Shown: in pieces, positions 11,974-16,684 of the stretch
Layout: each line of letters opens with the position of its first letter
How positions within the stretch are numbered: position 1 is the first letter of the stretch
Assembly (NCBI GenBank): GCA_021742025.1
Contig: JAIOWT010000004.1
Span: forward strand, 1-29,024
DNA from: Candidatus Nanopelagicales bacterium
Lineage (GTDB): Bacteria; Actinomycetota; Actinomycetes; S36-B12; UBA5976
Direction of reading: 5' to 3'
Length of the DNA stretch: 29,024 bases
Notes under the pieces: model-generated
Seen by the model: the letters and a program-made list of their open reading frames with translations, nothing else
What the model was told of the DNA's origin: nothing
The model's database searches: none
Program-made: the position numbers and the translations under genes

Positions 11974-12677
11974 GCCCAGGTCCAATTGCGCTAGTTGGAT
12001 CCGGTGAGTATTTGCCGATTATGCAAGAAGTGGAAGCGAACCTAATCGCTGGGCGAAATCCTAAGTATGTTCAGATTCCAACTGCGGCGGCGCCTGAAGG
12101 TGAATCCTCATTGCACCACTGGATCACATTAGGCAAGGCGCAAGCTGAGCGAATTGGTGTTGAGGCAGTATCTGTAATTGCTCACGACCGCAATGATGCT
12201 GATGATGCAAGAATTGCTGAACAAGTTCGTGGTGCCGGGTTAATTTATCTATCGGGTGGTAACCCTTCTTTTTTGGCTAACACACTTCGCGACACTTTGT
12301 TATGGCGAGAAATCGAATCCGCTTGGCGTGACGGCGCAGCTTTGGCTGGCTGCAGCGCTGGTGCGATGGCGCTGGCAGATCACATTCCTACTTTGCGACT
12401 GCCAACACATGCAGCTACGAGTGGTTTTGGACTGTTGCCACACATTCGGGTGCTGCCACATTTCGACAAAATGTTTGCTCGACTACCTGATTTCATGACC
12501 AGATTCATGAAAGTTCCAGACGGTGTCAGCGTCGTAGGTATCGATGAAGATACTGCGATAGTTGGTGGCCCGTTTGAATGGGAAGTTCAGGGCCGTCAGT
12601 CAGCTTGGTTATTTACTGATGGGCATCGCGTTGAGTATGGCCACGGCCAGACCTTGATTACGCCTGCTCTTTCCTGA
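11970..12677 (+). CDS. Peptidase S51/cyanophycinase-like hydrolase
   Basis: A 235-residue single-domain protein with the canonical S51-type layout: IALVGSGEYLP at the start, IYLSGGNPSFL in the middle, the nucleophile elbow LAGCSAGAMAL with Ser129, and His164 in VLPHFDKM. S51 enzymes include cyanophycinase and alpha-aspartyl dipeptidase, which use Ser-His-Glu/Asp catalysis. No cyanophycin synthetase is in the window, so the substrate is not cyanophycin by context. Its ATG overlaps the stop of the preceding paralog, so both are made from one mRNA. The 3' end overlaps the convergent mshD gene by 20 bp. Confidence 0.82.
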   Translation: MSPGPIALVGSGEYLPIMQEVEANLIAGRNPKYVQIPTAAAPEGESSLHHWITLGKAQAERIGVEAVSVIAHDRNDADDARIAEQVRGAGLIYLSGGNPSFLANTLRDTLLWREIESAWRDGAALAGCSAGAMALADHIPTLRLPTHAATSGFGLLPHIRVLPHFDKMFARLPDFMTRFMKVPDGVSVVGIDEDTAIVGGPFEWEVQGRQSAWLFTDGHRVEYGHGQTLITPALS

Positions 12678-13578
12678 ACATCACGTCAGTATCCCAATGG
12701 GCAAAGCCAAGGGATTCATACAACCCAATTGCCGCAGTGTTGTCCGCATCGACATACAGCATGGCAGCCGGCAACCCCTGACTGCGTAAATGTTCCAGAC
12801 CTCGAATACTTAATGCCCTAGCCAGTCCGGTGCCGCGCTCACTTGGGGCAACGCCAAGAACATAAATTTCACCAATTTCCGAGTGGCCGTGTGTTCCCTG
12901 GCCACCATGAACTTTGGTCCAGTGATAACCGACCATCTTGCCATCACGAGTTGCAATCAGAAACCCTGTTGGATCAAACCATGCTTCGGACATGCGAACA
13001 TCAAGATCTTCGCGCGTCATACGTCCTTGTTCTGGATGATCGGCGAAAACTTGGGAATTCAATTCCAGCCAGTTGTTTTCATCAGCGCCAACTTCAAAAG
13101 CTCGAATCACTATCTCAGGCGAGAATTGCGCTTTAGGAAATGGTGCGAAGAGCGAGCGGCGCATCTGCCAAAGTTCCCTGCTTTTTTCAAAGCCAAGGTT
13201 TTCCGATAAGCCGTATGCACTTGATAACTCACCATGTGCCCAAAGTCGGATACGTGAATCGCTGGTGCGATCAAGTGCAGCTTGTACCAATGCTTTACCG
13301 ATTCCATTTCGGCGGGCGTCGGGATGCACCACGACTTCAAGTACTGGTCCTTCAACGGCATCAGTTGCATCCAGATGTAAGTAGCCTTGAATTTCCCCAG
13401 CCTGATCAATGGCAATCATATGTTCATCATGAGAATCTCCACCATGATGTAAGTGAATCAATACGTGCTCTGATAGCGGCGCCATCTCGTCAACAATTGC
13501 CGCATCGAGGGTAATTTGAATTACCCGCGAAGTTTGCTCAGGAGTTAAATGTGAACAAGTATCAATTGAAAATTGCAT
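12658..13578 (-). CDS. mshD: Mycothiol synthase MshD
   Basis: A 306-residue protein with two GNAT acetyltransferase domains. The first (residues 1-150) has VLEVVVHPDARRNGIGKALV. The second (165-306) has GYHWTKVH, GEIYVLGVAPSERGTGLARAL and LYVDADNTAAIGLYESLGF. This pattern is specific for MshD, which acetylates Cys-GlcN-Ins with acetyl-CoA in the last step of mycothiol synthesis; only the C-terminal domain is catalytic in the known enzyme. The ATG lies 2 nt after the stop of the GlnR-like gene, so the two are co-transcribed, as in Rv0818-Rv0819. Its presence is strong evidence for Actinomycetota. Confidence 0.96.
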   Translation of the reverse strand: MQFSIDTCSHLTPEQTSRVIQITLDAAIVDEMAPLSEHVLIHLHHGGDSHDEHMIAIDQAGEIQGYLHLDATDAVEGPVLEVVVHPDARRNGIGKALVQAALDRTSDSRIRLWAHGELSSAYGLSENLGFEKSRELWQMRRSLFAPFPKAQFSPEIVIRAFEVGADENNWLELNSQVFADHPEQGRMTREDLDVRMSEAWFDPTGFLIATRDGKMVGYHWTKVHGGQGTHGHSEIGEIYVLGVAPSERGTGLARALSIRGLEHLRSQGLPAAMLYVDADNTAAIGLYESLGFAHWDTDVMFRKEQA

Positions 13579-13580
13579 AT

Positions 13581-14288
13581 TTAAACAAGAATTTCATGTG
13601 ACTGCGATTCAGCAATCGGGGTGGTGACGTATCGGTAACCGACGTTGCGAACTGTACCGATCAAGTTTTCGTTTTCTGGACCTAGTTTTGCGCGCAGGCG
13701 TCGCACGTGCACGTCAACAGTTCGAGTGCCACCAAAGTAGTCGTATCCCCAAACTTCACGAAGTAGTTGATCGCGAGAAAAAACTCGACCTGGGTGTTGA
13801 GCTAAGAACTTAAGTAATTCAAATTCTTTGAAAGTTAAATCAAGAGTGCGGCCACGAAGCTTGGCGGAGTATGTGGCTTCATCAATTGAAAGCTCACCAG
13901 CTTTGATTTCACCGGCTGAATCAAAATTGTTAGCTGCTTCAACTTTTGTAGTTGCCAGGCGAATCCGAACTTCGATTTCGGCTGGACTGGCATTGACCAA
14001 AAGTACGTCGGTCAAACCCCATTCATGGTTTACGGCAGCCAATCCACCCTCGGTCGTAATAAGGATTACGGGAGATGTATTGCCTGTGGTTTCCAGAAGT
14101 CGGCACAAACTGCGAACTGCAGGTAAATCGGTGCGACCATCAATCAAAATCACATCAACTTCTGGTGCAGTGATTAAGGCCGTCGGTTCTGGCGACATTA
14201 CCTTTATATGGTGACTTAAGAGTTCAAGGCCTGGCAGAACTGCGCTGGATGGTGTGAGCGCGCGGGTGAGCAATAAGACCTGTGCCAT
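13581..14288 (-). CDS. glnR: GlnR-type OmpR-family transcriptional regulator
   Basis: A 235-residue regulator. The N-terminal receiver-like domain (1-115) keeps Asp50 in VILIDGRTD but lacks most of the acidic phosphorylation pocket, as in known actinobacterial GlnR, which works unphosphorylated as a dimer. The C-terminal winged helix (about 125-225) has [47 protein letters not shown] and [11 protein letters not shown]. GlnR controls nitrogen-assimilation genes in actinobacteria. No histidine kinase is nearby, which fits an orphan regulator. The ATG at 14288 is preceded by AGGTGATGGC. Placement between thioredoxin and mshD matches Rv0816c-Rv0819. An MtrA/RegX-type identity is less likely given this context and the receiver sequence. 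Confidence 0.92.
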
Positions 14289-14370: not shown

Positions 14371-14796
14371 TCAGTTATTCACAAGTTCAGTTACCGCAGA
14401 AGTCAGTTCGGCCTTCTTGGGAACCCCAGTAGCTCGGAAGTGAACCGTTCCCTCTTTATCGATTATTAAAGTGGTGGGGGTTCGAGAAATTCCGTAAGTC
14501 TTAACTAAATCCATGTGCTCAACCACATCTAGTTCAATGTGGCAGATAGCTGGGAAACTGTTGGTGACCCCTTCAAGGACTTTGCTGGTAACTCGGCAAG
14601 GCTGGCAAAACTCAGACGAGAACTGAAGAAATGTGACCTGCGGTGGATGATCGTGATCCAAGTGCAGGTGCTCAGTTAGGCCTTGAAGTGGCGGGACGAT
14701 TTCTTCGTGAAGTTTGCCATCACTTAGTTTCCGATAAATCCCAAAAGCGACTGAGAGCACAAGAACGGCAAGCAATACGTAGCCGCCACTCGACAT
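14371..14796 (-). CDS. thiX: Membrane-anchored thioredoxin-like protein (ThiX type)
   Basis: About 141 residues. An N-terminal hydrophobic segment (YVLLAVLVLSVAFGIY, residues 6-21) is followed by a His/Asp-rich linker (HLHLDHDHPP) and a thioredoxin fold. That fold has the redox motif CQPC (Cys64, Cys67) and the cis-proline segment RTPTTLII. It would act as a thiol-disulfide reductant tethered to the membrane; which side the domain faces is not certain. I choose ATG 14796 because GAGGAG lies 5 nt upstream; the GTG two codons earlier is too close to that site. It stands just beyond glnR and is divergent from the DUF4395-sulfurtransferase operon, the same set of families as Rv0814c-Rv0819. Confidence 0.88.
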   Translation of the reverse strand: MSSGGYVLLAVLVLSVAFGIYRKLSDGKLHEEIVPPLQGLTEHLHLDHDHPPQVTFLQFSSEFCQPCRVTSKVLEGVTNSFPAICHIELDVVEHMDLVKTYGISRTPTTLIIDKEGTVHFRATGVPKKAELTSAVTELVNN

Positions 14797-14830
14797 GTGC
14801 ACTCCTCATAAATAGGTAGTAATGAACTTA

Positions 14831-14920: not shown

Positions 14921-14926
14921 TATGGT
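14921..14926 (+). promoter_or_regulatory. -10 hexamer TATGGT for the Cys leader peptide operon
   Basis: TATGGT ends 6 nt before the ATG at 14933, so transcription should start at the leader peptide's start codon. No clear -35 is seen at the normal distance; TTGACG at 14889-14894 is too far away. The arrangement predicts a leaderless uORF followed by a 68-nt gap to DUF4395. Confidence 0.6.
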
Positions 14927-14932
14927 TGTGGC

Positions 14933-15013
14933 ATGTCGAGAACCACAGTTCTGATCAAGCGCCGAGTCGTGGATTACGGTCGCCTTGGTTCCTCGATGTG
15001 TATGTGCGCTTGA
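14933..15013 (+). CDS. Cysteine-ended leader peptide (uORF) of the sulfurtransferase operon
   Basis: A 26-residue peptide beginning MSRTTVLIKRRVVDYGRLG and ending SSMCMCA. The KRRxVDxGRL core with clustered Cys at the C-terminus is the pattern of actinobacterial sulfur-gene leader peptides. In Mycobacterium smegmatis a polycysteine uORF upstream of cysA2-type genes reports low Cys-tRNA by ribosome stalling. The ATG is preceded by TATGGT with a 6-nt gap, so the peptide is translated leaderlessly. Cys codons lie at 14999 and 15005. GTTCC at 14988-14992 can pair with GGAAC at 15062-15066, and TTCCT at 14989-14993 with AGGAA of the downstream ribosome-binding site. A ribosome paused on the Cys codons would mask this segment. 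The pairing model is inference. Confidence 0.82.
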   Translation: MSRTTVLIKRRVVDYGRLGSSMCMCA

Positions 15014-15081
15014 TCCTGCAGTCCCAATAGCGGCTGCGATAACCCAAAGCCAAGCTAAACCGGAACTGAAAAGGAAATCAA

Positions 15082-15507
15082 ATGACCAAGCAAATCGATC
15101 CTCGTGGACCACGCTTTGGAGCTGCGATCACAACGGTAGTTCTAGCAATCATTTTGCTAACGATTCCATCAAGTGTTGCCACTGTCCTATTGGCATTCCA
15201 AACTGTAGTTTTCGGATTGGGTGCTTTCGTCGGATTGCAGGCTCAACCATACGGAATTTTGTATCGCAAACTTGTTGCACCAAAACTTGGAAAGCCAACC
15301 GCGCTTGAAGCAGTTGAGCCACCACAGTTTGCCCAACTTGTTGGATTCCTTTTTGCAGTTACTGGCCTAGTAGCACTAGTTGCTGGTGCTGAACTGGTTG
15401 CCACAATTGCGGTTGGGTTTGCATTGGGCGCAGCGTTTTTGAATGCGGCATTTAACTTTTGCCTTGGCTGCGAAATGTATCTAATTGGCAAGCGAATCTT
15501 TTCTTAA
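15082..15507 (+). CDS. DUF4395 membrane protein
   Basis: A 141-residue hydrophobic protein. It has about four membrane segments: 14-32 (AAITTVVLAIILLTIPS), 34-54, about 84-102 and about 106-125. The conserved C-terminal motif FCLGCEMY contains a CxxC pair, and DPRGPRFGAAIT at the N-terminus is the usual DUF4395 opening. The family is found beside thioredoxins and sulfurtransferases and is thought to take part in sulfur or thiol redox handling; no reaction is known. AAAAGGAAA lies 5 nt before the ATG. It follows the Cys leader peptide and precedes the sulfurtransferase gene by 29 nt, so it should be the first gene under cysteine control. Confidence 0.87.
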   Translation: MTKQIDPRGPRFGAAITTVVLAIILLTIPSSVATVLLAFQTVVFGLGAFVGLQAQPYGILYRKLVAPKLGKPTALEAVEPPQFAQLVGFLFAVTGLVALVAGAELVATIAVGFALGAAFLNAAFNFCLGCEMYLIGKRIFS

Positions 15508-15536: not shown

Positions 15537-16382
15537 ATGAGTAACCAAGCACTAGTAGACGCCGAATGGGCACTGGCACATCTTGATGATGCAAAAGTGG
15601 TTTTCATCGAAGTTGATGAAGATACCGAGGCTTACGCCGGTAACCATATCAAGAATGCAATTGCATTGAACTGGAAAACTGATCTGCAGGATCCAATTCG
15701 TCGCGACTTCGTAAACAAAGAACAGTTTGAAGTGTTGCTAAGTGCCAAGGGTGTATCTAATGATGACACCGTTGTGCTCTATGGCGGAAACAACAACTGG
15801 TTTGCCGCTTACGCGTTTTGGTACTTCAAGCTTTATGGCCATGGCGATGTTCGCTTGCTTGATGGCGGACGCAAGAAGTGGGAACTAGATGGTCGCGAGT
15901 TAGTCAGCGATGTTCCAAACCGAGCAGCTACTAAGTACGTTGCTAAAGATCAAGATCTTTCTATTCGTTCATTCCGCGAAGATGTACTCAAGGCGATCGG
16001 AACCCAGAATCTTGTCGATGTTCGTAGCCCCGATGAGTATGCTGGTCGCTTGCTCGCGCCAGCTCACTTGCCGCAAGAAGCAGCACGTATCGGTGGCCAC
16101 ATTCCAACCGCAGCAAACATTCCGTGGAGCAAGGCAGCAAATGAAGATGGCTCATTCAAATCAATCGATGAACTAAAGACACTTTACGAAGGTGCTGGAG
16201 TGGACTTGAATAAAGACACCATCGCTTACTGCCGAATCGGCGAGCGCTCTGCTCATTCATGGTTTGTTCTACACGAGCTACTTGGCGTGAAGAACGTCAG
16301 TAACTACGACGGCTCGTGGACCGAATACGGATCCCTTGTTGGCGTACCTGTTGCCGTTGGCGATGAGCCAGGCACAGCATGA
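15537..16382 (+). CDS. cysA2: Thiosulfate sulfurtransferase (tandem rhodanese, CysA2/SseA type)
   Basis: A 281-residue protein of two rhodanese domains. The N-terminal domain (1-125) has no catalytic Cys (LYGGNNNW at the loop), as normal for the inactive half. The C-terminal domain (about 150-275) has the active loop CRIGERS with Cys232, identical to the CysA2-type loop, and DVRSPDEYAG at its start. The enzyme transfers sulfane sulfur from thiosulfate or mercaptopyruvate to a thiol acceptor. The ATG at 15537 has AAGGAG 5 nt upstream; a longer reading frame from 15459 overlaps the DUF4395 gene and is rejected. Its stop overlaps the sseC start by ATGA, as in the mycobacterial cysA2-sseC pair. 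Confidence 0.95.
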   Translation: MSNQALVDAEWALAHLDDAKVVFIEVDEDTEAYAGNHIKNAIALNWKTDLQDPIRRDFVNKEQFEVLLSAKGVSNDDTVVLYGGNNNWFAAYAFWYFKLYGHGDVRLLDGGRKKWELDGRELVSDVPNRAATKYVAKDQDLSIRSFREDVLKAIGTQNLVDVRSPDEYAGRLLAPAHLPQEAARIGGHIPTAANIPWSKAANEDGSFKSIDELKTLYEGAGVDLNKDTIAYCRIGERSAHSWFVLHELLGVKNVSNYDGSWTEYGSLVGVPVAVGDEPGTA

Positions 16383-16684
16383 GTGGTTGCGGCGCAGTAG
16401 TCGGCGGTGTCTCGTTAGACAACGTTGACATCTCAACACAGGCTGTCATTCAAGGTGTAATTTCATCTGGAGATGTCCCAGCCTCTGTTGGTTATGCCCG
16501 CTTGCTCGATCGAAACGATGAGTTCGTGGCTGAAGTTCCGATTTCAAAGCAGGGTGAATTCCGATTCTTCACTGTTGCTGGTGATTGGACTGTTGTTGCA
16601 CTGATTCCGGGGGCAAATAGCCGCACAAAGGTTCAAGCAACAATCGGCAAGATCCTCGATGTAGACATTGCAGTAACCAAATAG
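16379..16684 (+). CDS. sseC: SseC-like DUF1416 protein
   Basis: A 101-residue protein of the SseC/DUF1416 family. It has a Cys near the N-terminus (MSGCGAVVGG), then a beta-rich segment QAVIQGVISSGDVPASVGYARLLDRNDEF and GEFRFFTVAGDWTVVAL, resembling a small carboxypeptidase-regulatory-like fold. The family is always found next to CysA2-type sulfurtransferases; its function is not established, although sulfur-carrier or partner roles have been suggested by context. It is translationally coupled to the sulfurtransferase by a 4-nt overlap and is the last gene before a strong terminator at 16696-16731. Confidence 0.9.
   Translation: MSGCGAVVGGVSLDNVDISTQAVIQGVISSGDVPASVGYARLLDRNDEFVAEVPISKQGEFRFFTVAGDWTVVALIPGANSRTKVQATIGKILDVDIAVTK

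Follow-up and report, generated by a model that had tools for sequence, protein, structure and literature searches.

A very probable cysteine leader peptide upstream of a DUF4395-sulfurtransferase-sseC operon in uncultured actinobacteria

In ribosome-stall attenuators, such as the macrolide-inducible erm leaders, a ribosome stalled on the leader releases the ribosome-binding site (RBS) of the next gene, and Canestrari et al. are said to have proposed in 2020 that an RBS is released by ribosomes paused in a Cys tract. Cysteine leaders were predicted for cys operons of Mycobacterium and Propionibacterium acnes and, at cbs, of Bifidobacterium longum by Seliverstov et al. (2005; PMC1262725), who, in the part of that paper covered here, found no conserved hairpin in these leaders and suggested Rho. 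The sections of Shell et al. (2015; PMC4633059) considered here place a leaderless ORF with a Cys cluster upstream of cysA2, whereas the excerpts available from PMC8079986 contain eight Streptomyces lividans leaders, none of them Cys-dependent, and those from PMC11550727 contain nothing on cysteine. In the passages covered, PMC9094748, PMC9031893, and PMC13236596 attribute cysteine-dependent regulation to Canestrari et al. (2020); the last also describes pairing of a leader ORF that occludes the Shine-Dalgarno sequence and is unmasked by stalling, with the cysteine genes of M. smegmatis as a case of translation attenuation. A leaderless leader of S. lividans metNIQ, listed in Table 4 of PMC8079986, is noted in that source, as far as it is covered here, for several methionines and threonines; it ends CMCRRMCAF and might also sense cysteine.

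We analyzed a 29,024-nt stretch of DNA from a Candidatus Nanopelagicales bacterium (the window), in which an earlier note had described a leaderless cysteine leader with a possible anti-Shine-Dalgarno switch. The observation itself is confirmed and its interpretation partly supported: the leader is real, is very probably a functional Cys leader of a known kind, and very likely serves as a cysteine-responsive attenuator. The mycobacterial precedent to which the note appealed is borne out both by the literature and by homology to NF042933. What it presented as new, namely pairing that hides the Shine-Dalgarno sequence until a stalled ribosome frees it, is already stated as known in the covered part of PMC13236596.

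The leader, its operon, and its relatives

The leader and the operon comprise the following features.

14921-14926, + strand: -10 hexamer TATGGT, 6 nt upstream of the leader ATG
14933-15013, + strand: leader ORF of 26 codons (ATG at 14933, TGA at 15011-15013), encoding MSRTTVLIKRRVVDYGRLGSSMCMCA; NF042933, 17.1 bits
14999-15007, + strand: putative sensor codons, Cys23 (codon 23, 14999-15001) and Cys25 (codon 25, 15005-15007)
15062-15081, + strand: RBS of the DUF4395 gene, with the Shine-Dalgarno sequence AGGA at 15072-15075; sequestered in the free predicted fold
15082-15507, + strand: DUF4395 gene (PF14340, 1.7e-40)
15537-16382, + strand: rhodanese-type sulfurtransferase (PF00581, 1.1e-33, two matched stretches)
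16379-16684, + strand: SseC-like protein (DUF1416; PF07210, 8.6e-29)

The 26-codon ORF, its Met-Cys-Met-Cys-Ala end (GSSMCMCA, then the stop codon), the -10 box 6 nt before its ATG, and its place upstream of DUF4395, sulfurtransferase, and sseC genes were all read correctly in the earlier note, the gene identities following from the PF14340, PF00581, and PF07210 matches. Because TATGGT lies 6 nt before the ATG, transcription should begin at or beside the start codon, and the leader is very probably leaderless, as had been claimed; no sigma-70 type promoter with a -35 element was found at the leader. The Cys codons stand near the end of the ORF, at positions 23 and 25 of 26, and form an MCMC arrangement instead of a contiguous polycysteine run; in relatives, two or three Cys may follow one another (e.g., L014, L019, and L190), and six do so in L132 and L133 only. 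The top NCBIfam match of the rhodanese-type protein was 3-mercaptopyruvate sulfurtransferase, under its cut-off, and a scan of the window against Rfam gave no match at the gathering score.

Divergent from the operon, a thioredoxin-like gene occupies 14371-14802 on the minus strand. Also adjoining the operon on the minus strand, 12658-14288 holds a GNAT-type acetyltransferase, which we take to be MshD-like, and a GlnR-type regulator. The closest DUF4395 records are from metagenome-assembled Actinomycetota. Three metagenome records titled Bifidobacterium breve (L025, L040, and L073) carry a DUF4395 gene resembling those of uncultured actinobacteria, and their names look wrong.

To the best 80 of the 89 loci from the DUF4395 search we added further loci from genomes of the order and phylum, which together with the window gave 220 places; removal of 8 (3 with too little upstream sequence and 5 duplicates) left 212 upstream regions, which still include some repeats (one region reached twice at a different offset). 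A profile built from 21 leader peptides (alignment A1) matched 92 of the 212, and after 3 weak matches were removed, 89 leaders remained, 80 of them distinct. The earlier note had staked its reading on conservation of the peptide in relatives, and a homologous leader is indeed present in these 89 of the 212 regions. A regular expression applied to the remaining 123 regions matched loosely in 30 of them, but no match was convincing. Two regions that lack the leader (L157 and L159) contain an ORF, thioredoxin-like by eye, on the same strand, ending 52-55 nt before the DUF4395 match. The leader is present at every one of the 21 nearest loci with sequence upstream (L001-L023 minus L003 and L009, two genes that lie at contig ends), so the ORF is not a chance occurrence.

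The leaders share the core [TI]KRRxVDxxRxxSxxC, with exceptions, and 1 Cys column is invariant among the 21 aligned peptides. They were divided by eye into clades A-F. The window falls in clade A, in which the leader is under purifying selection (pN/pS 0.14 for codons -7 to +3 around the Asp); the corresponding values are 0.16 in clade B, 0.17 in C, and 0.05 in D, as expected for a translated peptide. The number of terminal Cys follows the clades loosely, with one in L012, L013, L071, and L171 of clade A, and two in L073 of clade C and in some members of clade D. Clades C (11 leaders, e.g., L027, L038, and L045) and D (27, e.g., L030, L047, and L054) mostly have one terminal Cys, and many of their leaders have an additional Cys two residues past the Asp. 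A TANNNT hexamer lies 6-8 nt upstream of the chosen start in 80 of the 80 distinct leaders, an upper bound since starts were partly picked by that hexamer, versus 14 of 840 other ATG or GTG codons on the same strand.

In a coarse first look across genomes, the leader profile matched (E ≤ 0.001) in 54 of the 148 genomes searched in the order and 17 of the 296 searched in the phylum, only 28 candidates being scored in large genomes in the phylum search. Two large genomes (G271 and G320) gave six matches each. Genomes G001-G008 had one clear leader each, and nine weaker matches there (E 0.06-0.6) yielded no convincing second leader.

Residues 5-26 of the window peptide match NF042933 (NCBIfam equivalog, Ms5788A Cys-rich leader) at 17.1 bits (E = 0.0033) against a cut-off of 45, which makes the peptide a divergent homologue and not a formal member. 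Among 10 relatives, L017 passes this cut-off (46.4), seven fall under it, and L008 and L013 give no hit, nor do these two match any scanned leader family. NF042934 ("putative leader peptide," cis_reg_atten) is passed by L017, L020, L047, and L030, and NF042936 (Ms4527A family) matches L017 and L020 under its cut-off; the window peptide matches neither family at E ≤ 10.

Nine more leader places of the order were hand-picked from the genome-search listing, and the downstream ORFs of seven (L237, L239-L242, L244, and L245; e.g., LISRRHVDLGRVSSAMCLC) were scanned, one contig having ended. They encode an NIR_SIR nitrite/sulphite reductase in three cases, a Cys/Met-metabolism PLP enzyme in three, and a cysteine synthase in one. 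The last matches cysteine synthase A (cysK) in NCBIfam above the cut-off, as does the one PLP enzyme scanned there, an OAH/OAS sulfhydrylase. Judged by these annotations, the set looks like a sulfur/cysteine regulon of the mycobacterial kind.

Predicted pairing of the leader stop region with the ribosome-binding site

We folded the window RNA that starts at the leader ATG and includes the first 30 nt of DUF4395, and considered the following elements.

14959-14983, + strand: predicted hairpin from the RRVVDYGR codons (14959-14968 with 14972-14983; 94.0% of cells paired, 15 sequences)
14987-14992, + strand: GGUUCC, previously proposed as anti-Shine-Dalgarno; unpaired with the RBS in the predicted fold
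15007-15024, + strand: predicted anti-RBS arm spanning the leader stop codon (CGCUUGAUCCUGCAGUCC), pairing with 15062-15084 (15058-15084 in the fold of the window RNA)
15018-15037, + strand: predicted alternative hairpin GCAGUC/GGCUGC (15018-15023 with 15032-15037), competing with the anti-RBS helix in the window

The arm at 15007-15024 pairs with the RBS at probabilities of 0.88-0.99 for 15 of its 18 bases, with one base at 0.75 and two unpaired, and the free window RNA is more closed at the RBS than all but 1% of 80 recoded or shuffled nulls. Covariation for this helix is modest. It was assessed on 15 clade A sequences (alignment A2) with 500 shuffles per test, the resulting counts being inflated by the kinship of the shuffled sequences and not to be read as probabilities. 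In the stop-RBS helix, 78.8% of cells are paired versus 75.8 in shuffled alignments (6/500 as high), and there are 7 compensated cells versus 3.6 expected (10/500 as high); the covariation score was reached by 4 of 500 shuffles, other measures being weaker (84/500 and 80/500). Slid versions of the helix pair at most 49% of cells. Across the 15 rows, the middle base of the stop codon and the base 3 nt before the DUF4395 AUG form A-U in 10, G-C in 3, and G-U in 2, although in L171, one of the A-U rows, the column is not its stop codon. The RNAalifold consensus includes the GCAGUC/GGCUGC hairpin (94.3% of cells paired; 1/500 shuffles) and the RRVVDYGR hairpin and omits the stop-RBS helix, possibly as a result of indels that displace the RBS arm in part of the rows.

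An alignment-free test compared each arm's own partner with partners taken from other sequences. It favored the own partner for the stop-RBS pair in 17 clade A sequences (p = 0.001), and in the 13 of clade B gave p = 0.084, or 0.027 with a longer arm; three other arm pairs in clade A gave p = 0.52-0.92. In predicted folds, the stop region is the main element closing the RBS at 14 of 20 clade A loci, L011 being closed by the stop region together with the pre-Cys codons and L171 by neither. On these models, the switch arm seems best placed at the leader stop codon, 15007-15024, where it is better supported than at GGUUCC.

The same test pointed to two further pairs. The Cys region and the RBS fit one another in clades A (p = 0.023), B (0.003), and C (0.0022), the last of which sits badly with the absence of a masking gain in clade C (see below). 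The leader start and the pre-Cys codons gave p = 0.0002 in clade A, 0.62 in B, 0.028 in C, and 0.0014 in D, and the leader start with the Cys region gave p = 0.024 in clade B; values below 0.05 were limited to the Cys-region-RBS and start-pre-Cys pairs in clade C (10 sequences) and to the start-pre-Cys pair in clade D (21). With the leader folded alone, the start-pre-Cys stem has 12.4 pairs in the window against a null of 3.9, and in 490 of 500 shuffles its cells are less well paired. As the main switch this stem was rejected: its probability is about 0.02 once downstream RNA is included, and its covariation score was matched by 130 of 500 shuffles.

We then placed a ribosome footprint in silico at each leader codon and defined the gain as the resulting change in RBS opening energy, with nulls that keep the peptide and redraw codons from pooled usage (for L073 and L074 of clade C, a fallback Cys position was used in gain and null runs). 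The mean gain in clade A (20 leaders) is close to 0 at the Asp and climbs to 3.1-4.4 kcal/mol over the stretch between the Cys codons and the stop, where that of clade B (13) reaches 2.6-3.5 kcal/mol; at the terminal Cys the mean is 0.03 in clade C (11) and -0.9 in clade D (27). Gain at the Cys codons exceeds that in the leader body in 19 of 20 clade A and B clusters under five of six settings and in 18 of 20 under the sixth, but across the six settings in just 5-7 of the 11 clade C and 5-14 of the 27 clade D leaders. Against recoded or shuffled nulls, the top tenth holds 15 of 38 low-GC and 9 of 42 high-GC leaders. The logic of the earlier note, in which a ribosome stalled for Cys-tRNA frees the RBS, is thus supported in silico for clades A and B.

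In the window, 11.5 of the 15 stop-RBS pairs stay with Cys23 in the A site and 0.7 of 15 with Cys25, and masking yields no gain at Cys23 and one of 2.0 kcal/mol at Cys25. Masking at Cys25 lets the GCAGUC hairpin form and raises the unpaired fraction of the Shine-Dalgarno bases from 0.28 to just 0.61, because the RBS partly re-pairs with the 5′ end of the leader. The mean gain in the window is 0.9 kcal/mol (9% of nulls as good) and ranges from -0.4 to 2.0 across the six settings; the modeled opening of the RBS is partial and setting-dependent. At 13 of the 14 clade A loci closed by the stop region, over half of the pairs made by the stop region are lost once the last Cys codon is masked; the exception, L071, is a leader whose second Cys codon has become His (MCMHS). 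A ribosome at the leader stop codon opens the RBS about as much as one at Cys25, and the model therefore requires fast termination.

We consider it probable that the leader attenuates translation of the DUF4395-sulfurtransferase-sseC operon in response to cysteine, with its arm at the stop codon, 15007-15024. The mRNA would begin at the ATG of the 26-codon leader. With cysteine plentiful, ribosomes would complete the leader and depart, after which 15007-15024 would pair with the DUF4395 RBS and start codon (15062-15084) and the operon would be shut. When charged Cys-tRNA is short, a ribosome would wait at Cys25, covering the 5′ half of the arm; the GCAGUC/GGCUGC hairpin could then form, leaving the RBS freer.

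Alternative explanations

The leader might instead control transcription, by Rho-dependent termination after the leader, and not initiation at DUF4395. Rho was suggested for mycobacterial cys leaders in the covered part of Seliverstov et al. (2005; PMC1262725), the + strand of the window holds no intrinsic-terminator-like site, and such a route might account for clades C and D, in which a stall at Cys is not predicted to open the RBS. The covarying helix, however, includes the Shine-Dalgarno sequence and the AUG, and we regard this explanation as unlikely for the window.

The conserved TKRRxVDxxR segment of the nascent peptide could also contribute to the stall, beyond the Cys codons, in the manner of an arrest peptide. 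Conservation is indeed at the protein level (pN/pS 0.05-0.17 by clade; the first Arg is encoded by AGG in 3 of 80 leaders), and the motif is kept across leaders with one to eight Cys. These codons also specify a hairpin, however, whose stability tends to exceed that of synonymous recodings, and part of the conservation may be due to the RNA. From the leader start to the first terminal Cys, the natural sequences are on average stabler than GC-matched synonymous recodings in every clade, the median fraction of nulls as stable being 0.06, 0.05, 0.10, 0.02, 0.01, and 0.07 in clades A-F (clade E comprising two sequences); for the RRxVDxxR part alone it is 0.17, 0.05, 0.07, 0.05, 0.01, and 0.15. Single leaders, e.g., L014 and L176, are exceptions. 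Since its codons tend to out-stabilize recodings, the motif may be kept for the RNA as well as for the peptide, and a contribution of the peptide itself to the stall appears quite unlikely.

The earlier note had proposed that the GGUUCC codons before the Cys codons pair with GGAAC or AGGAA at the RBS and that a stalled ribosome prevents this pairing. Its positions for GGAAC (15062-15066) and AGGAA (15072-15076) are right, and GGTTCC, given as 14988-14993, is really at 14987-14992. As an isolated duplex, the 15-mer immediately ahead of the first Cys codon and the RBS have an energy of -9.5 kcal/mol, which 5.8% of the 864 synonymous variants and 1.2% of the 4000 random 15-mers drawn from the window equal or surpass, and the longer arm 14978-14996 forms with the RBS the strongest isolated duplex of the transcript, at -14.4 kcal/mol. 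The own-partner test is marginal for the pre-Cys-RBS pair in clade A (p = 0.047; longer arm 0.018), and closure by the pre-Cys codons is predicted at 4 of 20 clade A loci (L008, L012, L013, and L111). Against this, the base-pair probability in the window is 0.00 at each base of 14987-14993 with 15062-15076; enforcing the pairing costs 8.7 kcal/mol, and at most 0.01 pairs form with a ribosome masked at codon 7, Cys23, Cys25, or the stop. The covariation that the note had expected between the GGTTCC region and 15062-15076 is absent: 78.9% of cells are paired, a level that 463 of 500 shuffles reach or exceed. The affinity of the pre-Cys 15-mer for the RBS is, on these calculations, mildly unusual, yet unused in the predicted fold, and we consider the GGUUCC pairing very unlikely to be the switch.

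That the ORF is a functionless chance product, as the presence of just two Cys codons in 26 might suggest, is almost certainly wrong given the 80 distinct upstream homologues, the constant position of the -10 box, the purifying selection, and the sulfur-gene context.

Comparison with known attenuators

Returning to attenuation through the stop-codon arm, several observations could be joined into a broader picture, which we put forward tentatively as a possibility. The stop codon of the leader would lie within the anti-Shine-Dalgarno arm, so that termination hands the arm to the next RBS; the choice between UAA and UGA would covary with the spacer before the next AUG; RRxVDxxR would be kept partly for the RNA hairpin; and the leaders of Actinomycetota would split into sequestering clades A and B, mostly with at least two terminal Cys, versus clades C and D, mostly with one, that use another route. 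As far as searches show, the lineage, the two-Cys form, the stop-codon arm, and the clade split are new; among the papers listed by our searches, none treats this leader in the lineages concerned, which, with the key paper lying outside the search, is weak evidence of absence. The locus extends cysteine attenuation through leaderless leader ORFs from mycobacteria to uncultured environmental actinobacteria and supplies a concrete, testable RNA arm together with one codon, Cys25, on which the switch should hinge. With the comparative set, leaders expected to open the RBS on stalling can be told apart from leaders expected not to, so that the accepted mechanism can be tested on natural exceptions.

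Unlike the erm leaders, which respond to a drug, the window leader would take a hungry Cys codon as its signal and is very probably leaderless. The predicted leaders in the covered part of Seliverstov et al. (2005; PMC1262725) resemble it in having Cys codons, there in runs, near the stop, in other operons and lineages than the window. The NF042934 and NF042936 families have an RRxVDxxR-type peptide in common with relatives of the window leader, the window peptide itself being reported by neither. The closest counterpart is the mycobacterial Ms5788A leader of cysA2/Msmeg_5788. Unlike its long Cys run, the window leader has MCMC and scores 17.1 bits against the cut-off of 45; its anti-RBS arm, predicted at the stop codon, may also set it apart. 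The two have in common a short ORF that is leaderless, very probably so in the window, terminal Cys codons, the same kind of operon, and a homologous peptide, and in the Ms5788A leader cysteine-dependent ribosome pausing is thought to affect the downstream genes.
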